64,000 bases of DNA from Sweltsa coloradensis (lineage: Eukaryota > Arthropoda > Insecta > Plecoptera > Chloroperlidae): assembly GCA_024449915.1 (NCBI GenBank), contig JAMZAV010000157.1, forward strand, positions 62,001 through 126,000, written 5' to 3'. Below the pieces are notes generated by a model, which ran no database searches, was not told the origin of the DNA, and saw only the letters and a list, made by a program, of their open reading frames with translations. Positions 10,106 to 63,960 of the stretch are shown piece by piece (the first letter of the stretch is position 1; each line of letters starts with the position of its first letter). The translations under genes were made by a program, and so were the position numbers.

Positions 10106-10710
10106 TACTAGGAAGCTTCGCAAACGCTTTTTTTAGTCGCGTTGATGGATGCACTTTTTTGCTAGTTTGCGTAGGACCACTTTTCTTTTTGCAAGAGCTT
10201 TTTGAATGCATTGTAGGTGATTGTTGGCAAGTTTCTATTGGTATTTGTTTTGTTATTATAAACCTCAAAAAACTAATATTAAAACCGTTCTTCTATGGAT
10301 TCTGGCTAACTTTTTCAACTTTTTCTTTCAAAAAGCAATACATCACCATTACCTTAATCTACATGAAAAATAAGAACGTTGTAGTCCTACCCGTTTGGTC
10401 AGAATCAGCCCAAATGTCACGAAAATATCGCACCAAAAATGGTAAAAAACGTAAAAATACGATATTCATGAGAAATATTTCTTCGATTGTACCCAAAAAC
10501 ATGGCAGGTCTAAGTTCAGAGATTTCGAAGGTCCTGCCCCTCCAATTTTTATCAAGATCGAATATGCCGTTTGCCCGTAGCGTGGCGAACAAACAGACAG
10601 AAAAACAAACAAAAGCAAACAAAAAACAAAAACAAACAAAAAAACATTGGAGCTAAATTTTTTGAGGGGTCAGTGAATTGTAGTTTTCGCTTTGCTCATC
10701 CAATTATTTG
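10106..10710 (+). mobile_element. Family A element, copy 1
   Basis: Shares with 20052-20656 and 54752-55515 an ordered set of phrases: a start like actaggaa...gc, gcgttgatggatg, gcaagagctttttgaatgc, ttggtcagaatc, atattcatgagaaatatttc, gtttgcccg, a tract of aaacagacagaaa, then ggagctaaattttttg and a final ctcatccaa. A 189-codon ORF spans most of it, but its frame is not conserved in the other copies, so it is a by-product of the repeat. Non-autonomous; class not assigned. Confidence 0.8.
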
Positions 10711-12030: not shown

Positions 12031-13660
12031 TTGTCCTATACTCTCTATCTCATACCTTCCAGACCAGCTTTACTTTTCGCCCGATGTTGAAGATAACCTC
12101 ATCATTGCCGGTTTCCTCAAGTTAAATATCCACGTTTTGAAGCCATTGCAATATAAAATGTGAAGTAATTCCCCAACTAACGGCATCTTGACTTTTGACG
12201 TATGATTTCGTCACCAACTCTAAACACCGTTTTTCACAAAATATTTTATATTAAAATATGAATATTTGTATTTCCCATAAATTACACAGTGACCACACAT
12301 AATTCTATGCACATGCATCATGCGGTGATGAGCGTTAGAGCCATGACTGAGTATATTACCACGCAGTATGAACGTGACTTGGGTGTATTAACGCAGGCGG
12401 GTGGTGATAAATCTACTAATTTATTGAAGCTCGGATAGCCACAGTTGGTTCCTGTTTGCGTCTAAGGTTGCTTGCTGTAGAACTTCTCAAGTATGGGATC
12501 AATAATTATTATTCTCATGATTATTGACTATTTTTATCTCAAAATTTAAATGTTGTTTCACCTTAAAACCGGCGCAAGTGTACTTGTATAATTAAATTAT
12601 ATTTCTAAAAAGCTGTTGTAAAATTTGTTTTGACATTTACTCTTATGTTTCAACCATCAAGACAAACTTTTCATCAAGATTATTGACAGAACATTTTTAA
12701 GTACAAGTCTTATATTAATCGGATCAAAAGTAGGGTACCAATATCACCATTCATCCATCCAGATCTTGATATAAAACATTTTAATTTCCGATTCTTTAAA
12801 AGTAAAAAATGCGGTTTTTATTATTTATTAGGCTTCACGTTTTTTTTATTTAAAGATTTTGCAAGAAATACCTACTAAGAACTAGTTTAAAGCTATCTAT
12901 TCTAGTGTTTTATGTGACTATATTTCATCATTTACCATTAGAAGTGCAAGACACACCCCCGTATTTATGGTTTTTGTGGAAAGTAAAAATAGATGCTACA
13001 AATGCAAATTTGACAAAATTAGTGCTAATTAATATTCGAAATTTAAATGCTAAAAAACCGTATCACTATATTTTATTAGTTTTTTTTTTTGTTTAAAGGT
13101 TGGCCTTCATTGCATAGGTTCCTTTACAATTCACAGGTAACAAATGTGCTTGTTGTATTGAATTCTGATAAGAACATTTCCCGGAAATGACTTTCAATGT
13201 ATAATAATTGTTATTGCAGTGAAACTTTCCCATCCGTCATTGCCATAGGGGACGTCGTAATGATAAGAGTGGAAAAGTCGTCAGTACCATGGCCAGCCGT
13301 TGACTTCATTACACTGCGTCCTTACAAAATGGCGGCACGTCAGGCATGGTGTGGTTATTACTGACATGAGTGTTTCTCTGCATATTGTTGATTTATGTCA
13401 CAAACAATACATAGGGTGACGACCTCTGTTCAAGCAAAGATTCATAGTTTGGAATAGTACACAATAGTTCGTAGTTCGTGGTTGTGGTTCGTTGCACATC
13501 GTGCATTGAAGTTACTAGTAAAATAAATATATCACATTTTTGTAGGCCTCATTTTGAATTTTGAATATTTATGGCACTGAATGTTTAATTTTTAGCATTT
13601 TCTCTGTCTATTTCTACCCACTTTCTGATTTATAAATATTTAAATATATTTATAATTGTT
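12031..13660. other. Unannotated AT-rich stretch with one YY1-like motif
   Basis: No exon recognised. At 13326-13336 AAAATGGCGGC matches the core of the YY1 motif found just inside many TATA-less animal promoters. The surrounding 13240-13360 is locally less AT-rich. No transcript can be inferred from this alone. Confidence 0.35.
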
Positions 13661-13661
13661 T

Positions 13662-13905
13662 AGGTTCAGGTTCAGGTTCAGGTTCAGGTTCAGGTTCAGG
13701 TTCAGGTTCAGGTTCAGGTTCAGGTTCAGGTTCAGGTTCAGGTTCAGGTTCAGGTTCAGGTTCAGGTTCAGGTTCAGGTTCAGGTTCAGGTTCAGGTTCA
13801 GGTTCAGGTTCAGGTTCGGGTTCGGGTTCGGGTTCGGGTTCGGGTTCGGGTTCGGGTTCGGGTTCAGGTTCAGGTTCAGGTTCAGGTTCAGGTTCAGGTT
13901 CAGGT
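13662..13905 (+). repeat. (GGTTCA)n array with a central (GGTTCG)n block
   Basis: About 40 hexamer units without indels. The middle block of about 9 units (around 13812-13865) is uniformly GGTTCG instead of GGTTCA, and GGTTCA resumes after it. The six-base period gives an open dipeptide frame (Arg-Phe/Gly-Phe), which is a repeat artefact. Confidence 0.98.
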
Positions 13906-14225
13906 TTATATCAACGTATCAACTCTCGCAAGTTTCAAGACACGAGACCGTGTTTTCTCCTGGGTGGGTGTCGGCGGCGGGGGTCGTCCTCCTTGACGCT
14001 GTCTCGTGACGCAAGTGACGTCACAGTCACACGCCTCACCTGCGGTGACAGACAGGTGAACAGTACGGTACAAGGACGCGCGCGCACATGCCCAGTGGGC
14101 GCGTGACGATCAGACGTCTTCCGCACCGCCGGCTGCCTGCCTGAGAGGCCTTGCCTGGCGGGCGCCTATAGCAGCGTTCCGGTTTCCACCGGTCACAACG
14201 ACAACCTTCGATCAGACACGCCATT
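13906..14225. promoter_or_regulatory. GC-rich, CpG-rich island between two satellite arrays
   Basis: It is markedly richer in G+C and CpG than its surroundings. It holds a full palindromic CRE (GTGACGTCAC, 14015-14024), E-box-like caggtg sites and a cgcgcgcgcac stretch. Candidate promoter or enhancer. Overlapping short ORFs here have no recognised domain and follow from the low stop-codon density of GC-rich DNA. Confidence 0.4.
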
Positions 14226-20051: not shown

Positions 20052-20656
20052 AACTAGGAAAACGCTAAAGTCCCGCCGCGTTGATGGATGACGTTTTTTG
20101 TTAGTTTTTTGTTTGCATTTTTTGCGTTTGTTTGCACTTTTCCTTTGCAAGTGCTCTTTGAATGCATTGTAGGTGATTGTTGTCAAGTTTCTAATTGTTA
20201 CTTGTTAATTGGTATTATAACCCTAAAAAACTAATAATTAAAACCTTTATTTCTATAGATTCTAGCTAATTTTTTTCAATTTTTTCTTTCAAAAGTCACA
20301 TCACATTACCATAATCTTAATGTCACGTTGAAATATGAACGCTGTAGCCCCACCCGTTTTGGTCAGAATCGGCCAAAATGTGGACGAAAATATCGCATTA
20401 AAATCGAAAAAAATCGTAAAAAACGATATTCATGAGAAATATTTCTTCGATTGTACCCAAAAGCAATACACCTCTAAGTTCAGAGAAAAACAAAGGTCCC
20501 CTCAAAATTTAATCAAGATCGCTTATGCCGTTTGCCCGGAATCCTGCTAACAAACAGACAAAAATACAGAAAAAAAAAAAAAAAAACATTGGAGCTAAAT
20601 TTTTTGGGGGTCAGTGAAATTGAAGTTTTCGCTTCGCTCGCTACGCTCATCCAACA
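20052..20656 (+). mobile_element. Family A element, copy 2
   Basis: Starts actaggaaaacgctaaagtc, then gcgttgatggatgacg, gcaagtgctctttgaatgc, ggtcagaatcggcc, atattcatgagaaatatttc and gtttgcccggaatc. A poly(A) run follows (about 20570-20586), then ggagctaaattttttgg and cgctcatccaac. Same order as the copies at 10106 and 54752. Confidence 0.85.
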
Positions 20657-37116: not shown

Positions 37117-39539
37117 AAGCCAAACAAGTTAACAAGTGAAAAACAAGTGAAAGCTATTTCCTGAGCACATTTGCTTATCATCGTGCCGTCTTCACAGCTT
37201 TCCGAGTAAACCGAAAAATGATATGCGCCACGACACCAGTTCACCCCCAAGCCTGTGCCGCAGCAAATAACCTATTTTGTTTTCAAAAGAACTACCTTTG
37301 AATTGGATTGTGATGACGTGAAAATAATTATTACTTACATACCATTTTTTTCATAGCTGCATGGAAATGTTTATTAACGATCATGATATATTTTTGTGCA
37401 CAATTCAACGATATACTCTTGTTTGATATTGGGGGGGGGGGGCAAAACTATAGTCCTGCCCCCCCTTGATTTCGCAGGGGGGCAAGTACTCTCTGCCACC
37501 CGGCTATGTATCAAAATATTTCTAATATTATACCAGTTGACTGTGGTTGGTGTGGGTTTCAACTTTGAAACATAATTTCAGATTTTACTAATTCTGTATT
37601 TGATTAAATTTATTACTAAACAACGTGGAATTTTGTTTGAGGTTTCCATCATCGTTTGGATTTATTTGCATTTATTACTGACCAAGTTGTATGACTACCA
37701 GTACATATCTATTGAGTTTTAGGGATTCATAATAATGTATATTCGAAAATTTTATAATTAAACAACAATAAGTATAATTTACGATTAATTAACTTCATTA
37801 ATTTTTTCATGCTATATCCTAAAAGAATAAGCTTTCTGTTATTTTTGGACTTAACTTACTGAAAGGTTGCAAGAACGTAGTTTGGGCACATGGACCATAA
37901 CATTTGGATTCTTTATGGTTAAAGTAGTGTCAACATAAAATCTATCATTGAGCCAATACCAACAACAGACAGAATGTCCGCATGAATTGACTTTGGTGAA
38001 AACATTGTTCATCTAATGCGTTAAGTGAAATTTGTATGTATTGCTCCGTTTCGATTGCACCTAGAAGAAACGTTACATTTCTACGTTTAAACGTTTCAAA
38101 AATTCTCTGAAATTACATGCATAATCTGTTTAGCAGTATGTTTTATAGGGAGAGAGAAAAATACCGAATAATTGAACTGAAAATTAAAACAAAATACAGA
38201 GGCTGTATTTTCATTTCATTAAACAAAATATTTCAAAATACATTATTATTTGCAGCAAAATACAAGATTTTTTTCTCCACAAATAACCTGATATCACCAG
38301 CGTGTGGCAGGAAGTTACGACAATCATTGGTACATTGCTCCGAGATTGCTTAGGTTTATGCAATGGTATTAGTGATTATTACAATTATTATATATTTTAC
38401 TTCAATCAATGTCCTGTGGATAAACCTTTAAAAAAAGTGAAACCTGCCCATAGCAATTAATGTACTTCCTTTTTCCTACGGATACCTAGCCACAATCAGG
38501 CTAGTAATCCATGTATAATAATCATTTATAGGCATTGGGAAACCACACCGTTAATATTATATATCTTACATCCTATATTACAAGATTATTGTTGTTTATA
38601 CTTCGATAAACTGCAGTTCAGGATACTAATAATCTGCTTACATGAATGTTAGATTTAAGTTAAACAAAAAGTAGGCCTACAACAAACAAAGAATAAAACG
38701 TCCCGAATCCGAATATCACATTCATTTTATAAAGTGTAAATCGATTGAATATGGGTTAATTTTTAATAAAAAATCTTAGACGCTCAGTTAGACCTTCAGT
38801 TGTAGTCTTACCGTTTCAAGGTGATAACACTAGAATTGAAACTATCCATAATATTGATATTCAGAAATTAATAAATCTCTTAGTCCGTATAGGCGATGAA
38901 ATAGCAAACATCAGTTAGTAGGGAGGTGCGTATAATATAACTACCTAAAACTAGAGGCGAGGTTTGGCAGTCGTCATTGTGAAACCTCCCTTCGACGACC
39001 ACCACAACGACAACAAAGAGTAAAGACGATGACAACCACGACGAGGGAACCCCTTGCTGTGGCTGGTTCTGTCTACGAAGGGTATTTCCTCGGTCCATTC
39101 CACATCTTCTAAGCTAAAGTAGAGTGATGCATCATAACCTAACTGTTGACGCGCCCTTAAACCAAATAAATCAAACCCATCGTTCAAAATAAATGTTGAT
39201 ATTAAAGTTAGAACATCTATTGCAAGTGAGCGGTAAAGATGATACTATATCTAATTCAGTTCCTTTCCTACAAACGATGCATTTTCTGTTTTCCAGCTTT
39301 TCCAACAATAATAAATCGGATGTTGCAATACCGTTACATAATGATTAAAACAAGAATTGCATGATTGTTAATTTCCCATTCGATTAATCGCATTTTATGA
39401 AACAATTAATTACACTCTAGATAAACGCATTGTTAATCTGAAGTTTAATCCGCAATTGCAAACATTTTATTTTTTAAATAGTCGCCTTCCTCTTAGGTCG
39501 AGGGCTGAATGGGGTAGGGGATAGAGAGGGCGATGGGGG
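37117..39539. other. Unannotated stretch upstream of the peptide gene
   Basis: A G run lies at 37431-37442. No exon recognised. Positions 39300-39470 are rich in taat/attaa words and end in a G-rich patch just before the TATA box, plausibly the gene's proximal regulatory region. Confidence 0.35.
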
Positions 39540-39571
39540 TATATAACCAGGGTCCAACTTCTCGCTACTCA
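39540..39571 (+). promoter_or_regulatory. TATA-box promoter of the peptide gene
   Basis: TATATAA at 39540-39546 is preceded by a G-rich stretch. An initiator-like ctactcaaat lies 30 bp downstream (A at 39571). The predicted 5' leader of about 72 nt contains no ATG before 39643. Confidence 0.75.
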
Positions 39572-39642
39572 AATCACTTCCTTGGAGTGACCCAAGTGTT
39601 CTTGTTTCTCGTCTTGAAGCGAATCTGTCCGGAACTGCAGCA

Positions 39643-42600
39643 ATGAGGGTCTGGCTGTTGAGTCTAGTGGTCGTCTTGGTGGTTGTGGCGGGGACTCAAG
39701 GTAATATCACTTGCTTAACATCTGTGTAACTCTTTTATGCGATTTGGAACCAAATTTCAACTTTAATTAATGTAATTTATTGGTTTTACCTAAACTATTT
39801 ATTATCTAGTGCAACCTGGATTCAGTTTCCGGTTGTTTGCAACCCTAATTTTATTTTGGTGGTGGGATAGTCTAAATAAATAACTCAATGAGTTCGTTTT
39901 TATAGTCTACCCCCTTAAAAGTCACATAACTGATTTTCCTTGGGAGACTTATTTTTAAAGCCAACCAAGCCAACCAAGCTGGCGCCGACGCCAGCGACGA
40001 GCAAACAGTGATCAACCAGAGACCTGTATAGATCTATTGAAGCAAGAAAAATTTGAGTATTTAAAATTTATTTGTTTATTTATTATCAAATTGGAATTCA
40101 AATTCAGTAGTCCTCTTTTTTAACCTTCTGAGTTGATGTCATGCAAAAGGGGGTAGTTTTTTTTACCACATAATCTATAGCATAATAATACACTAAAAAG
40201 ACCGTTAAAAATTATATTTTGTAACTGTGACTTTACACGAATTTTCAAATTTTTGATCCAGAAATTGTTGAAAATTGGCATTTTGTGAAATTTCTTAAAT
40301 CGGCTTTAACCTGTTTCTCTTTTGTTCCACATAGATACTAGAGCATCGTACCAATCTAAAATGACCCTTTATAACATCGTGTCTTGAAACTGTGCATAAA
40401 TATACACTAAATACGCAAAAATATGCAATCCAAAATCACACCCATTCTTGGTAATCAGCATATTTTGACCGAACGACTTGCCCAAATTACAAAACAAAAA
40501 TAGAGGATTTACAGAAAATGCTGTAGAGTATGTCAATAATTGCCAATTTTTTTTTTTATCAAACTCCTCCAAGGCCACGGTGCATAAAGATCGTCCCCAT
40601 GTTATTTCTTATGGGAGATTTTTGTCGATGGGACCTAGCTCGAAAAATACCAAGTTTTGACAAAAAATACGGATAATTTTGGACCCAATAATTTACCTTG
40701 TTATTTCTAAATTCATAACTAGTTAGCCTGAATAAAATATTTTTATTTAGTTTAGAGGGTGAATATCCCTAAATTGACGAAACGTCACAGAGTTGTACGT
40801 CTCGGTCCGGTAGTCGGGAGTGGTGTTTCATTTTAAGCCGGAAACCGTAGTCTCCCCGTGGAAACAGCAAGGGGTACACCATCGGGTCGAGTGTACCGCC
40901 AAGGATGTCGACCCTGTTTTAATGGCTAATTCTTTGCAACTAAAAATTGTTAATAGTATGATAGTATAGAATTGTATTCATTAACGCTCATACGAAAACG
41001 AAATATAGTAATGGAATTAGCAACCATTTAGTTCAGTCTCCAGAAACCGGAGCGTTTTGCCATTTTTTTAATCCAAAATTTTTGTCTTAAATGTATATAT
41101 TTTTATGGTTAGAATACTATATATTTTCAAGTAAAACACAAGTATTACATTCCCTCACTGCTATGTTTGTTTTCACACTCTTCCATCGACTAACAAGACG
41201 ATTTGTGTGAGGCCCCTATAAATTAATTTATTTGAGAATATATTTCATTATTAAGCGATATATTGGTTTAATAAAATTAACGCCTCTACCTCAAAACCCA
41301 AAATTTTATTGTTACTACATAAGTGTGTATAATTTTGCCAGTAGGAGTAAAAATGTAACTAATGTAAGAAATTGACCAAAAGCTAAAAACACATTTCACA
41401 CATACCCATATTCTTGGACAAATTTATGACACAATGAGTAGCCACACAATTATCTTCCATAAAAGTTGGGTAAACTTGTGAATAAAGGTAAAAGATCGAA
41501 TGGTCTGATGAAAATAAAATTACATAATATTATATTATTAGGTTCAACCTTTTCTATATTGTTATATTCAAGCATCTTCTTGGGAATATCCTAGAATATT
41601 TTCATTCATTTTTTTTGCCAAAAACTACGTATCTACATAAAAACCACAAGTTGTTTTATATTTTATTTGGAAATTTGGGACATTTTTTTTAGTTAATGGG
41701 TCGAGATCATCTGCAACATTTATTCAATGACTTAGAAAACGAGTTCGTAACGTATTGCTGGAATAATTTGTGAAAAAGAAGTGGCCACAAGATACATTTA
41801 CATATATAAACCAATTAAAAAACTTGAAAGGTAACATATACCAATCACATTTTCATGTGGTCAAATTTGAATATTAAAATTAATATGCAGACATGTAGCT
41901 CTAATACCTTTCAATTTGGTGTTTTATAGATGGCATTTGACTGCACTTTTTAACCCCCACCCCCTCTTTAATTTTCAAAATTGTTACTAATGTTTTTAAA
42001 AAGCATTCACTCATCATTTTGCACCATCATCATCTTCACAACAATGTTCATAACCATTTATTTCCTTTGTTTAATGTCATATTCAACATAGCCTATGTAC
42101 TATGAATTGAATACGTCACTGGCCTTTATATTATGCTAACAATGTGTATTTTTCACTTTCAGGAAACATTGATCGACAGGCTCGTTTGGCAGTGTAAGTA
42201 TTTCACACGGTTTATAATACGCTAATAAAAGCTAGCGAGAGATTAATTAAAGCTAATTTTTAATCAAACTCTGCAAGTTATTCTACGTAAATGTCCTTAT
42301 TTCAGGTTTGGTGCTGGACAAGGCTTGTTGAACGAGCAGCCTGATGCCATGAGAGTCAGCCGTAATGAACAAACGCGTAAGTCAAGATTCTAGCAGTTAT
42401 GTAATATGTACATTGTAATTATTCTTATTTTTAAAATTATTCAACTACTATATTTCTAAAATCTGTGCAATTTTGTGAAATGTGAATGGTATAAAAGTTC
42501 ATGTACCGTATAACTAAATCTGATGGATTTAATAATACATATGTGTGGTGCTTCTAGCATCCTACCCCTGACGTTGGTAGACAATTATTTATTTTAGAGG

Positions 42601-44145
42601 TGAAAATATTCCACTATTATATTCGGTAGTATTTTCAACTACAGAATAAATTAATGAAATTTAATCATTAATTAAAATCCGATTAAAATCACTACTGTTT
42701 GTATTTGGGATGCAAATTACGGAGGATAGTTCTAACCAATCTATGCAAAACCTACAAGGCACTTCTCGATTTTGTGTATTGCGTTATGTGTGAAATTACT
42801 ACTATTGGCAGTTGTTCTTCCTGTAACCGCACGTGAATATCTCAAAATCTGTTAGGTAAAATAGAATTTTAGTATGAGTGATGTAATTTAAATGAAAGGC
42901 ATTACCTCAGTAAAGTCTCGCTTGGCCAACTAGTAAATGTATAGTATAGTATGTAGTAGACGGATAGTTTGCTTATTCATGATGATATTTGTTGCTTAAC
43001 GGCTCTTAATGCACTAAGGCTATTTGAGACGAATACACAATCCTATTTCTTATGCGGGATACGAACCCACGTCCTCGTGAAGCCATACGTTTCGTATGTG
43101 CCACCGCCGACAACTCTACTTGTTCATAATAATATGTTTTGTGACCTTAATGTCCCTAGATGTCCCTAAAATCCCGTCTTTATTTCAACCGTTTTCGTTA
43201 ATTTTCTACCCCTTTGTCATGTGAGAATGATATGTTTATATTTATGCTATATTCAAAACTATACAAATGTTTCTCTTAGATCCACCCATTCATTATCATA
43301 CCAGCTTATTTTCACTGAATTGAGAACCCAAATCCCAAATCCCAAATCACATTTCTTATTGAAGGTATTTGCCCCTGGAACCTAACTCAGATTTACCAGA
43401 ATTGACTATTTTTCCCATGTTAAGGAACTAGAATGTTAACTACTATTTCAAAAGGTAATCACTCCATTGTTAATGTTTATCTCACTAAAATTGTTGTTCT
43501 GTGTCTTTCAGATGAGACGGTGCGTGAAAAAAGACGCAGATAGTAAGTATTGTGTTTTTTCATTTATGTTCATCCTATCCTTCAAAGGATTCGTAGCCTT
43601 GTTCAGTGTAATATTTAAATTAAGGTAATATTTAAATTAAGTAAATTTTAATTTAAAATTATTTCCATATAGCATACCAAATTTGTAATGTGTTTAAATT
43701 TTATTTATTTGTTTTGTTTTTAATTTATTGAAATGGATATTAAATTTATATACAATATTTTAAATATCGATTTCAAAACAGCGCCTCAATAGATCAGTTA
43801 TAATATATCAAATACGACCAACTCTTTGTTTGGCTAGCAGAGAATTGCAGACACTTTTGTATTTATATAATTATTGTGAAGATTCTCCAAAAAAGGTGTC
43901 ACCACTATCACATTTAATGACGAACATATTTTTTTTAAATTTTGCTTCACATTAAAATGTTTCATTTTTGTCAATATGCTAGATAAAGTATTAAATAATT
44001 TGAGAGGTGTTCCAGTGCTAAATTCATTTAGACGTATTTGTAATTAATTATCTATAATTAAATATGATTTATGTTTTGTTCCAGCTGTTTCAGTAATCCC
44101 GGAATTTGTGGACGAAGGAGCGTTCTTAGAACCCCCGAAGTTTAG
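39643..44145 (+). CDS. Five-exon precursor of a small secreted cyclic, probably amidated peptide
   Basis: Exons 39643-39700, 42163-42193, 42306-42376, 43512-43542 and 44085-44145 have GT-AG borders, four of the five-base donors being gtaag/gtaat, and intron phases 1, 2, 1, 2. They join to 83 codons plus TAG. Residues 1-19 are a signal peptide (MRVWLLSLVVVLVVVAGTQ). Residues 20-59 form a hydrophilic propeptide with LLNEQPDAMRVS. KRRR (about 60-63) is a proprotein-convertase site. Then comes YCFSNPGICGRR: two Cys six residues apart, Gly as amide donor and a dibasic site, followed by an 8-residue tail. Predicted product: a disulfide-closed nonapeptide ending in Cys-amide. Spacing and the central Asn-Pro resemble allatostatin-C (C-x6-C); the Cys-amide end resembles CCAP; an antimicrobial hairpin is also possible. 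Function is not established. The start has G at -3 and is the first ATG after the promoter. Confidence 0.82.
40146..40788 (-). mobile_element. Family C transposon inside intron 1 of the peptide gene
   Basis: Inverted relative to the copy at 7945-8583, with co-linear matches throughout (for example gggacctagctcgaaaaat, gcatattttgaccgaac, gtgtcttgaaactgtg and ttttaccacataatctat). It adds about 640 bp to the 2.46-kb intron and carries no splice-competent ORF that I recognise. Confidence 0.7.
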
Positions 44146-44205
44146 AAGAGGACGAAGTAATATTGTGTTCCTTGGCAAACTTAACAAAGAATGTAAATGA
44201 ATAAC

Positions 44206-44211
44206 AATAAA
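44206..44211 (+). terminator. Poly(A) signal of the peptide gene
   Basis: AATAAA 61 bp after the stop codon, followed at 44229-44250 by a T/GT-rich stretch (tatgtagtattgttcttt) fit for a downstream element. Predicted 3' UTR about 80 nt. Confidence 0.8.
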
Positions 44212-44259
44212 ATGCTTCTTTGACCGACTATGTAGTATTGTTCTTTACTAGGTGCAGAA

Positions 44260-45654
44260 CGCCACCTGTAGGGCGGTGGTCCTTCAGATAAACTCAACCT
44301 CATATCCCCTCAATGTTTCTCATAACAAGATAACGAGCAGTAACAACAATACAGAGGGACACGGCGATTCTGATAACAATGCCATATCTAAGTCTTTCTC
44401 TATCTTTATAAATAGCAGACCTGTGGTTTCTTTGACAAGCTTTGACCTATGTAGGAGACAAGTTTGAAATGTAGAAATGTCTGTCTTATAGACATTTGCA
44501 CATACCCTTCCTAAACAATATTTTAAAGATTCAAGTTGTGAGCAGAAAATTAGAGTTCAAAATGTGTGCAGTGTACCAGAACGCATGGGAAATTCTCTGG
44601 ATTTCGTTATGATTACTGATGAAACTATTTCAATATTTTTTTATTTATTTATTAACTTTTTGTCCTATTGGCACGGGGAATTTTTTTTTTATAATAAAAA
44701 AATGTATAACCAGATTAAAATTTCAAAGTTGATGTACATTGTAATGGGCGTGGGGTCTGAAATGGTTAAATAGACACTTAACGTTGTACAAAAAGCTGAA
44801 CCGAGCTCATCAAACCATCAAAAATCCACGATCCAACCTCCTGGACACATTCGTTCAGGTCCGAGTTAATCCAGCACTAATGAAGTGCAAACACGTGGTG
44901 AATGCACCACACTGACTGACCCTGGTTTGAACTCGGTGAACCATCGGGAGAGAGCTAGCTGGCGCACGATTAGAGTCGCGCTATCACACAAGCGGTGCAC
45001 AAGCTATTTGTTTATCGGCGTCATACGGGCGCGTGCCCATTCATTAGGCGATAAACAAAACAATTATATGGTGAGGTGAGGTGATTAGCATTGCTGGATT
45101 TACAGATGTGTTAGTTTAGTTTTAGAATGGAAATTTAAATTCGCCAGTTACCTCTGTTATAAGTTGACAAGAAATGCATCCAATAATTTTGGATTTGGAT
45201 TTGGTTATAAATGTGTAAATAAGTATAATATTTTGTTACATTCTGACTTTTAAGTAATCAACAAGTTGTTGAAACATACACTTATAACAGATGTTCGTAA
45301 GATTAACCCAGATAAATTTTAATTTATAATAATATAACCAAATACACTGAAATATAACCTCGGTCACTTACTTAAAATTTATTTGGTTTGCCAAGATCGT
45401 GTTTTCGGTTGTTCCCATTTGATTAACATGGTAAATGTAACATTATGTTTATTTGCGAAGATCTTATTTTGAGGTTCCCCGAAAGTAAAGCACTCTCTTT
45501 AAGTACTCACAGTTTTGTGGCGTAACGATAGTTTGTGAAACATTTCCAAGGATTATTTAAAAATTAAATCCTTGAAATAACAATTTATGAGTGAGAATCA
45601 ACTGGGACATAACCTTTACTCATTTTTAAAAAATGTCATTAGTCGGTTGATTAA
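44260..45654. other. Unannotated stretch downstream of the peptide gene
   Basis: 44775-45065 is a CpG-richer block with tgtttatcggcg and gcgataaacaaaac (Forkhead/GATA-like, inverted with respect to each other) and cacgtggtg; candidate regulatory element. The rest is AT-rich without recognised features. Confidence 0.35.
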
Positions 45655-53990: not shown

Positions 53991-54751
53991 GAGAGATGAC
54001 AATACTAGAGTGATTTATTTGTACTATTATACATTTTATCTATCCAGCTCATTTAAACTTATTAACAAAGGAAGTTATACACAGTGCATAAAAGATAATA
54101 AAAAGTTCTTAAAAAATTAACAAAATCTTATAAAAAAACAGCTATTTACGTTAAACTGAGCAAAAGATCTTTGACAACTGTACATTAATTATTCCTTTTT
54201 TGCAAGGTTTATCAATTAATAATAAATGTATAACTACATTTGTAAGTTTTATATTTAGGGAAGTCTATCGTTATATAAATTAAAATTAAACATTAAAATA
54301 CAAAATTTTAAAGATAAAATACAACAAATAAATGGGAAATGCAAATGAAACAATCCCTTAAATTATCGCTTTTCTCTTGTTTGACATATCCATAACAATA
54401 TATCTTCGAATAAATGGAATAAGTTACTTTAAAACGTGATATTTTATTCGAAAATTTTGGGCAATAATTACTCATAACACAACTTTTAAAACAATGTTTA
54501 AAGTTTAAATACAGTGTTGTCTTTTAACATTATTTTATAATAGTGTATTGAATTATGATGTTGGAATGCGAATGTAAAAAATAATGTCTGTATTAAATAA
54601 TATTTTTTGGTTACTAATTTTATGTGGGCCTATGTCAAAATAAAATAAAATGTCAAAACTAAAAGAAATATTTAATTATCATTAACAAAGTATAATAATA
54701 TAATATGTAACATTTTGAAATATAAAAACAGATCAAGGTGTTAATTCATTA

Positions 54752-55515
54752 ACTAGGAAAACGCTTAAGTCCCGCCGCGTTGATGGATGAGCGTTTTTTG
54801 TAAGTTTTTTGTTTGCGTTTTTTGCGTTTGTTTGCACTTTTCCTTTGCAAGTGCTTTTTGAATGTATTGAAGGTGATTGTTGTCAAATTTCTATTGTTAC
54901 TTGTTAATTGGTATTATAAACCCCAAAAAAACTCATATTTAAACCTTTATTTCTGTGGATTCTGGCTAACTTTTTCAACTTTTTCTTTCAAAAGGTACTA
55001 CATCACCATAATCTTAATGTCCATATGAAATCTGAACGTTGAAGTCCCACCCGTTTGGTCAGAATCGGCCCAAGTGTGACGAAAATATCGCACTAAAAAT
55101 TGAAAAACTTATATTATAACCTTTATTTCTATGGATTCTGGCTAACTATTTCAACTTTTTCTTTCAAAATGTACTATATCACCATAACCTTAATGTCAAT
55201 GTGACATGTGAACGTTGTAGCCCTACCCGTTTGGTCAGAATCGGCCAAAATGTCACGAAAATATCGCACTAAAAATCGTAAAAGTACGATATTCATGAGA
55301 AATATTTCTTCGGTTGTACCCAAAAACAATACACCTCTTAAGTTCAGAGAAAACGAAGGTCCCCTACAATTTTCATCAAGATCGCATAAACCGTTTGCCC
55401 GGAATCGAGCGAACAAACAGACAGAAAAAAAAAAAAAAAAAAAAAAAAAAAAACACCCGAGCTAAATTTTTTGGGGGTCAGTGAAATTGAAGTCTTCGCT
55501 TCGCTCATCCAATTA
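54752..55515 (+). mobile_element. Family A element, copy 3, with internal duplication
   Basis: Starts actaggaaaacgcttaagtc and ends cttcgctcatccaatt. It sits exactly at the inner edge of the outer left arm. It carries a tandem duplication of 176 bp that the other copies lack (tctggctaac at 54961 and 55137) and an A run at about 55425-55453. Confidence 0.85.
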
Positions 55516-55534
55516 TTGTTCTTAAGTCTATTGT

Positions 55535-56300
55535 ACCACCTCTGGCCGATAATTTGAAAGTCGAAGAAACATGTCTGAAAAGTTTGCTGAATGAAAGAAG
55601 GTCTTTAAAATAACAGAAAAAAATGTGATTTTTTTGGGCGGGACGTAACCTCACTTTTGGAAATTATATTTAGATTTTTGGACAAAAGTGTAATATACAA
55701 GACTAGTTCAAAATTAAATTTTGAGAATCGGTTTTCTGGACATAGTTTCTAAACACCTTTAGCTATAACTTGATTATAGCTAAAATAGTTTTCTGAAAAT
55801 AACAGTTGGTGTACGAATTTTTTTGTCAAACGGTACAAATACGAGTTTTGTACCGTTTGACAAAAAAATTCGTACACCAACTGTGGTGTTTAGGTCTAGG
55901 TGTTTAGAAACTATGTCCAGAAAACCGATTCTCAAAATATAATTTTGAACCACCTCTGGCCGATAATTTGAAAGTCGAAGAAACATGTCTGAAAAGTTTG
56001 CTGAATGAAAGAAGGCCTTTAAAATAACAGGAAAAAAATGTGAATTTTTTGGGCGGGACATAACCCCACTTTTGGAAATTATATTTAGATTTTTGGACAA
56101 AAGTGTTACATACAAGACTAGTTCAAAATTGAATTTTGAGAATCGGTTTTCTGGACATAGTTTCTAAACACCTTTAGCTTTAACTTGATTATAGCTAAAA
56201 TAGTTTTCTGAAAATAACAGTTGGTATACGAATTTTTTTGTCAAACGGTACAAAACTCGTATTTGTACCGTTTGACAAAAAAATTCGTACACCAAGTTTG
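55535..56300 (+). repeat. Tandem duplication, period 414 bp, each unit with a hairpin
   Basis: accacctctggccgataat occurs at 55535 and 55949, and the units stay co-linear to about 55880 and 56295. Each ends in a hairpin made of tttttgtcaaacggtacaaa and its complement (centred about 55850 and 56255). Unit 1 continues with an inverted piece (gtttagaaactatgtccag) that folds back on itself. Confidence 0.9.
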
Positions 56301-63342: not shown

Positions 63343-63960
63343 GCAGCATCGCATAGCATCACATAGCATCACATAGCATCACATAGCATACCATACCACT
63401 GCAACACAAATACACATAGATAGCATAGCATAGCATCACATAGCATCACATAGCATCGCGTAGCATACCATACCACTGCAACACATAGCATACCATAGCA
63501 TAGCATAGCATCACATAGCATCACATAGCATACCATAGCATCGCGTAGCATACCATACCACTGCAACACAGATACACATAGTATAGCATAGCATAGCATC
63601 ACATAGCATCACATAGCATCGCGTAGCATACCATACCACTGCAACACAGATACACATAGTATAGCATAGCATCACATAGCATCACATAGCATCGCATAGC
63701 ATACCATACCACTGCAACACAGATACACATAATAACATAGCATAGCATCACATAGCATCGCATAGCATACCATTGGAACACATCTACACATAGTATATAT
63801 AGCATCACTTAGCATTGCATAGCATCGCATAGCATACCATTGAAACACATCAACCAAAGTGTATAGCATCACATAGCATACCTTTGAAACACATCTACAC
63901 ATAGTATTATATCACATAGCGTCATATAGCTTTACACAGACACATCTACACATAAATCAT
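63343..63960 (+). repeat. Higher-order tandem array of CATAGCAT/CACATAGCAT units
   Basis: Five- and ten-base words (agcat, agcatcacat, agcatacc) are arranged in larger units of about 90-130 bp, each closed by ccactgcaacaca-atacac or, at the right end, ttgaaacacatctacac. At least five larger units are visible, decaying rightward. Minus-strand ORFs rich in Met-Cys-Tyr are repeat artefacts. Confidence 0.93.

Follow-up and report, generated by a model that had tools for sequence, protein, structure and literature searches.

Positions 39540 to 44211 of a 64,000-nucleotide stretch from the stonefly Sweltsa coloradensis (hereafter the window: contig C157:62001-126000, GenBank JAMZAV010000157.1, in an assembly of 1.45 Gb in 16,871 contigs) appear to hold a gene for a small cyclic peptide with the ring CFSNPGIC; positions given below without a contig name are window coordinates. 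The best reading of the sequence is that this is an orphan gene whose family had not been described previously, as far as our searches extend, and we put at about 0.5 the probability that it is the prepropeptide gene of a secreted, disulfide-closed, Cys-amidated regulatory peptide of that family. That it is a real gene, and a member of a small family, is very likely, because its exons 2-5 are more conserved than their surroundings in two close copies and because the promoter, leader and signal exon recur at two other loci, on contigs C1549 and C3431.

Splicing of the window sequence joins five exons of the plus strand into a single 252-nucleotide frame of 83 residues and a stop codon, with intron phases 1, 2, 1 and 2 and with GT-AG borders in all four introns. 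A TATA box, TATATAA (39540..39546), with TATA-like counterparts on C5121, C1549 and C3431, precedes coding exon 1 (39643..39700), which supplies the start codon and a signal-peptide-like leader, MRVWLLSLVVVLVVVAGTQ(G), and ends at a phase-1 donor, GTAATA; the donors of the other three introns are all GTAAGT, and the acceptors are TTTCAG in introns 1 to 3 and TTCCAG in intron 4. Beyond intron 1 (39701..42162; 2462 nucleotides, phase 1), coding exon 2 (42163..42193; 31 nucleotides) encodes the propeptide segment (G)NIDRQARLA(V), and beyond intron 2 (42194..42305; 112 nucleotides, phase 2), exon 3 (42306..42376; 71 nucleotides) continues the propeptide with FGAGQGLLNEQPDAMRVSRNEQT(H). Intron 3 (42377..43511; 1135 nucleotides, phase 1) leads to exon 4 (43512..43542; 31 nucleotides), which ends in ETVREKRRR, a predicted convertase site, and the first two bases of a Tyr codon; after intron 4 (43543..44084; 542 nucleotides, phase 2), exon 5 (44085..44145) encodes the ring, the amidation Gly, the Arg pair, the tail SVLRTPEV and the stop, followed by a poly(A) signal, AATAAA, at 44206..44211. 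These elements had been proposed in a sequence-only reading of the window, and the TATA box, the five exons with their matching phases and GT-AG borders, the stop and the poly(A) signal all proved exact to the base on re-splicing. The 83-residue precursor that it had described, with leader, propeptide, KRRR, C-x6-C ring and Gly-Arg-Arg, was likewise recovered, the leader being recognized by hydropathy only (a top Kyte-Doolittle mean of 3.45 among 12-residue segments sampled every 4 residues).

The carboxy-terminal part of the precursor, KRRR-Y-CFSNPGIC-GRR-SVLRTPEV, argues for a regulated peptide because basic site, Tyr spacer, ring, Gly and dibasic pair stand in the order that is usual in amidated neuropeptide precursors. 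The leader would direct the precursor to the secretory route, where a proprotein convertase would cut at KRRR and GRR, and a carboxypeptidase together with the amidating enzyme would leave YCFSNPGIC-amide, with a Cys-Cys bond closing the ring. The core named in the sequence-only reading, CFSNPGIC, thus stands as the ring, whereas the mature peptide most likely retains an N-terminal Tyr; the computed [M+H]+ of the predicted amide with one disulfide is 1000.4015 and rises to 1156.5026 if one more Arg is retained. KRRR and GRR, which with the amidation Gly flank the ring, are unchanged in 3/3 close copies. According to the relevant passage of PMC4237046, the common convertases usually do not cleave next to a disulfide Cys, and the Tyr and Gly spacers would hold the cut sites away from the two Cys residues. 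The peptide could then be released from regulated granules and serve as a short-range or blood-borne signal, either a local messenger or a neurohormone. Its most likely target would be a G-protein-coupled receptor, the kind on which CCAP and CNMamide act; the window peptide may work like these ring peptides while, by the features tested, belonging to neither family.

A genome search for the exact codons of C-x-x-NPGIC-G gave three matches, each a copy of window exon 5. Between 35352 and 64000, contig C5121 matches the window piecewise and in the same order; it is best read as the other haplotype (haplotig) of the locus. Over the 93 kb compared on C841, the match is confined, dispersed repeats aside, to ~7 kb (37848-44818), and we accordingly regard this copy as a dispersed duplicate. 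Constraint was counted over exons 2-5 (194 nucleotides), exon 1 being absent from C841. The duplicate differs from the window by 5 substitutions and no gaps in these exons, whereas the 4430 aligned non-coding bases hold 287 substitutions and 51 gaps (Fisher test: p 0.0047 for the two kinds combined, 0.012 for substitutions and a non-significant 0.11 for gaps). Exons 2 and 4 are free of differences in both C5121 and C841; exons 4-5 of C841 carry 1 event, synonymous, against 7.0 expected, and its remaining four substitutions all lie in exon 3, where they alter three propeptide codons. The ring exon has a single change, synonymous, across the three close copies. In C5121, the exons show 1 substitution and no gaps, and the non-coding sequence 41 substitutions and 20 gaps in 2011 bases (p 0.025 for both combined, 0.093 for substitutions and 0.15 for gaps). 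Exons 2-5 are thus more conserved than their surroundings in both copies, although the signal is moderate.

Beyond the close copies, a more permissive search of the genome (E up to 10, 10 matches) yielded three weak matches that cover residues 1-23 only (E 0.07 to 0.42), and the DNA around all three has the same TATA region, 5' leader, start codon and GTAAT donor. A 226-base DNA query comprising the promoter and exon 1 gave at least five matches (5 candidates), namely, C157 itself, C5121 (85% identity), C1549 (81% over 226 bases), C8457 (77%) and C3431 (76%); C8457 and C3431, being 96% alike over 3.6 kb, are probably haplotypes. Exon 1 is 58 nucleotides long in the window gene, C1549 and C3431, and the latter two share 51/58 and 54/58 of its bases, respectively, with the window gene, whereas the first 300 bases of intron 1 align poorly. 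At C1549, exon 2 and a 71-nucleotide exon 3 follow with the phases of the window gene, exon 3 encoding SRAQESLDKQPEARGVSRRGEQA (QPEARGVSR motif) as compared with FGAGQGLLNEQPDAMRVSRNEQT in the window gene; the counterpart at C3431 encodes GRAQESLEQPEARGVSRDDRK and finishes in a different phase. The later exons of C1549 are our own splice predictions, one of them with a GC donor. A Pfam search gave nothing for the C3431 model and, for the C1549 model, one match below the cut-off (DUF2992, E 0.055). The window gene thus has at least two more distant paralogues that share its promoter and signal exon.

Behind the first three exons of C1549, at C1549:98302-101022, pieces resembling exons 2 and 3 occur repeatedly; a GC donor is present in one, and one would, conceptually, encode the ring CNSRGC. 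The repeated pieces either belong to a precursor of greater length or are left over from tandem duplication.

The window contains a single instance of the ring motif C-x6-C-G-[KR][KR], compared with 0.06 expected (both strands, 100 block shuffles). Shuffled sequence amounting to 812 Mb (one strand) yielded 234 ring motifs, of which 2 had a plausible spliced dibasic exon upstream, a count that asked for the penultimate dibasic exon alone and not for the other three exons. A chance arrangement, or else a dead gene, is a view to which the loss of exon 1 and the promoter from the C841 duplicate lends itself; in the face of the shuffle controls, the exon constraint and the promoter-leader exon common to the paralogues, we consider it highly improbable. 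The same three lines of evidence, with the promoter and exon 1 recurring at other loci, lead us to dismiss a chance arrangement as such, in agreement with the initial judgment that one was very unlikely.

The suggestion that the peptide matches no known family exactly was upheld wherever we looked. No homologue was found in the protein database, even with a three-row alignment search (no E value of 10 or below among 390 candidates); Pfam and PDB gave nothing for the window precursor; and the ring string and its close variants had no match in a string search of the main texts of the papers covered, supplementary files being outside its scope. A survey of ~200 Polyneoptera transcriptomes (PMC7179676) covers 21 single-copy neuropeptide families, and its abstract and relevant passages describe no family like the window peptide. 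For Apteroperla tikumana, the survey mentions an alternative AST-CC motif, to which the window peptide might conceivably be linked.

Several observations weigh against a regulatory peptide of this kind. Protein searches returned no relative from any other species, and the exon constraint is a modest signal from one genome; within introns, too, several stretches of 60 bases are 100% identical between the window and C841, so that the exons are not the sole unchanged islands. The C841 duplicate is without 39218-39695, that is, the promoter and nearly all of exon 1, and the search of the genome with the DNA of this region found no such site on that contig. In C5121, the exon 1 region is noisy, with many single-base gaps and an unreadable start codon, defects that probably come from poor sequence. 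Among the changed codons of exon 1, 5/5 at C1549 and 3/4 at C3431 are non-synonymous, some of the changes being common to both, and the promoter-leader block is therefore no textbook case of protein-level constraint. Furthermore, a ring-plus-basic scan, a dibasic-exon scan and tblastn detected no convincing ring exon like that of the window at C1549 (26 kb) or C3431 (17 kb), the top tblastn lines having E about 0.8 and above or an internal stop, whereas neuropeptides usually retain the mature sequence across paralogues. A family with a conserved promoter-leader block and a changing remainder would also fit defence or gland peptides.

Because promoter and leader are conserved and the ends divergent, it stays plausible, if on balance rather unlikely, that the window gene encodes a defence, venom, salivary or accessory-gland peptide, as the one member with an amidated ring in a duplicated family that is driven by a TATA promoter and keeps its leader conserved while the secreted part changes fast. 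The at least three leader-bearing loci and one truncated duplicate, the divergence of the exons downstream of the conserved block, the clear TATA box and short predicted mRNA, and the second conceptual ring, CNSRGC, at C1549 all speak for such an origin, and amidation beside a dibasic site does occur in secreted defence peptides. However, it is in regulated neuroendocrine precursors that this arrangement is typically seen; the side chains of the predicted nonapeptide amide are all uncharged, in contrast to cationic antimicrobial rings; and the ring exon has just the one synonymous change among the three close copies. We retain, as the preferred reading, a regulatory peptide of an undescribed family.

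Among known ring peptides, the core patterns for AST-CC, AST-CCC, CNMamide, CCAP and CCHamide had no match in the window. CNMamide (CNMa) is GSYMSLCHFKICNM-amide, and the CNMa gene of the stonefly lies at C121:34055-34080. Like the window gene, it has the ring, Gly, a dibasic pair and an S-x-L-R-x-P tail in its last exon, and each of the two genes has a Tyr codon, a little way past the basic site, that is interrupted by the last intron, in phase 1 in CNMa and in phase 2 in the window gene. The last exons align, IC--GRRSVLRTPE with ICNMGKKSSLRRPQ (tails GRRSVLRTPE and GKKSSLRRPQ), with a score that is reached by 35/200000 shuffles for the anchored tail and by 0.2% of 5000 for the gapped last exon, figures that are uncorrected for the three families compared (CNMa, AST-CC and AST-CCC). 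A diverged CNMamide paralogue in which the second Cys is no longer followed by its two residues would account for this likeness, but we think it improbable. The score of the leaderless precursor against the last two CNMa exons is matched by 4.9% of 3000 shuffles; the window ring has 6 inner residues as against 4 in the CNMamide form C-x4-C-N-M-amide, with no CNM-amide end; and the stonefly CNMa gene is modelled with 3 coding exons (the first being our own prediction), phases 0 and 1 and a different propeptide, compared with the 5 exons and phases 1, 2, 1 and 2 of the window gene. CNMamide precursors are 127-179 residues long (PMC7179676, in the lines on this family). Because phase, exon number, ring size, end group and propeptide all differ, we keep the tail likeness as a lead only, and membership of the CNMamide family is rejected on residues, gene structure and the genuine gene on C121. 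That contig carries both CNMamide (~34 kb) and AST-CCC (~219 kb).

Allatostatin-C (AST-C) was the family to which the sequence-only reading had likened the ring. Asn at +3 and Pro at +4 characterize the allatostatin-C core CYFNPISC, and the window ring shares with it these two residues and the C-x6-C spacing. The family is described, in an excerpt of PMC8786951, as having two Cys residues six residues apart and one peptide per precursor, placed C-terminally, and CFSNPGIC in exon 5 does lie near the precursor C-terminus. The score of the alignment with the last exon of AST-CC, moreover, is reached by just 1% of 3000 shuffles; with AST-CCC, it is reached by 33%. For some protostome AST-C peptides, PMC8851493 and PMC7536072 state, in the sections bearing on the core, an F-x-P or F-N motif with Phe at +2 after the first Cys, where the window peptide has Ser; and the Phe or Tyr that comes right after the second Cys in insect and Aplysia examples is replaced by Gly-Arg-Arg, so that the usual C-terminal Phe is missing, as had been observed at the outset. 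The first intron is in phase 1 in the window gene and, according to the gene-structure passage of PMC7536072, in phase 0 in allatostatin-C genes. The stonefly has its own AST-CCC on C121 and C5922 and AST-CC on C449 and C15596, with last exons that hold a propeptide or basic site plus the ring, whereas the last intron of the window gene splits the residue before the first Cys. A diverged gene of the allatostatin-C type is, then, very unlikely: the likeness in ring size and Asn-Pro stands, the kinship does not, and membership is rejected on key residues, gene structure and the separate AST-CC and AST-CCC genes. The terminal exon of AST-CCC on C121 (~219250-219702, minus strand) is present in three head-to-tail copies at 212-base spacing, the middle one ending in SCFD rather than the amidation form SCFG, and C5922 has more, noisier copies.

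CCAP, PFCNAFTGC-NH2, resembles the window peptide as a short single ring that is cut out between basic sites and has a Cys-amide end (predicted for the window), and its precursor is 143-174 residues long in Polyneoptera (PMC7179676, in the lines on this family). The CCAP ring has five inner residues and a fixed sequence, whereas the window ring has six and a different one. A shorter pattern located the stonefly CCAP exon on C2638 and C4528; the full ring pattern gave no match because an intron apparently splits the CCAP ring. Membership of the CCAP family is rejected on sequence, ring size and these separate exons. The CCHamides, GSCLSYGHSCWGAH-amide and KRGCSAFGHSCFGGH-amide, end in W/F-G-x-H-amide, and CCHamide-2 directly follows the signal peptide (as summarized in part of PMC7179676). 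They have the C-x6-C ring and an amidated end (again predicted for the window) in common with the window peptide; neither their end group nor the layout with the ring after the signal peptide is found in the window gene.

As for the surroundings, CpG in the window is at 0.94 of expectation, that is, not depleted, an Rfam scan of the window had no match, and no neighbour gene was recognized by eye among its longer open reading frames, a systematic Pfam scan of the window not having been made. Tandem arrays lie at 63345-63840, 54927-55283, 55531-56295 and 13658-13906; their types comprise an AGCAT-based satellite, 176- and 415-base repeats and a GTTCAG array. A dispersed repeat family at 10136-10709, 20053-20647 and 54739-55517 has several sites in C841 and C5121 too. 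Elsewhere in the assembly, COX1 has 32 matches, one of them on C13 and most interrupted by TGA, which the mitochondrial code reads as Trp, or by another stop, so that nuclear mitochondrial insertions look abundant; the copy on C3557, inside a contig of 68 kb or longer, is probably such an insertion. Read with code 5, the C3557 copy shows 98% identity to two Suwallia species and to Isoptena serricornis, the three best of 120 listed rows; both genera belong to Chloroperlidae (Plecoptera), which makes the order firm and, with the copy a probable insertion, the family likely. On the large contig C13, at 886923-888215, there are, by eye, bacterial-looking cytochrome oxidase genes and a transporter-like open reading frame, and C13 is perhaps a bacterial genome or contaminant within the insect assembly.

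If the window gene is real and expressed, an orphan cyclic amidated peptide and at least two sister genes would join the insect secretome, with precursors made of 31- to 71-base exons that evade homology searches and long-ORF (open reading frame) scans alike. More tentatively, stoneflies may possess an unrecognized multigene family of secreted peptides in which one conserved promoter and leader serves divergent products, conceivably including the Cys-amidated six-residue ring of the window, perhaps the four-residue CNSRGC ring of C1549, and further products as yet unread. Should this be true, the family would constitute a lineage-specific signalling or effector system, invisible to homology surveys and to gene finders that depend on long open reading frames.

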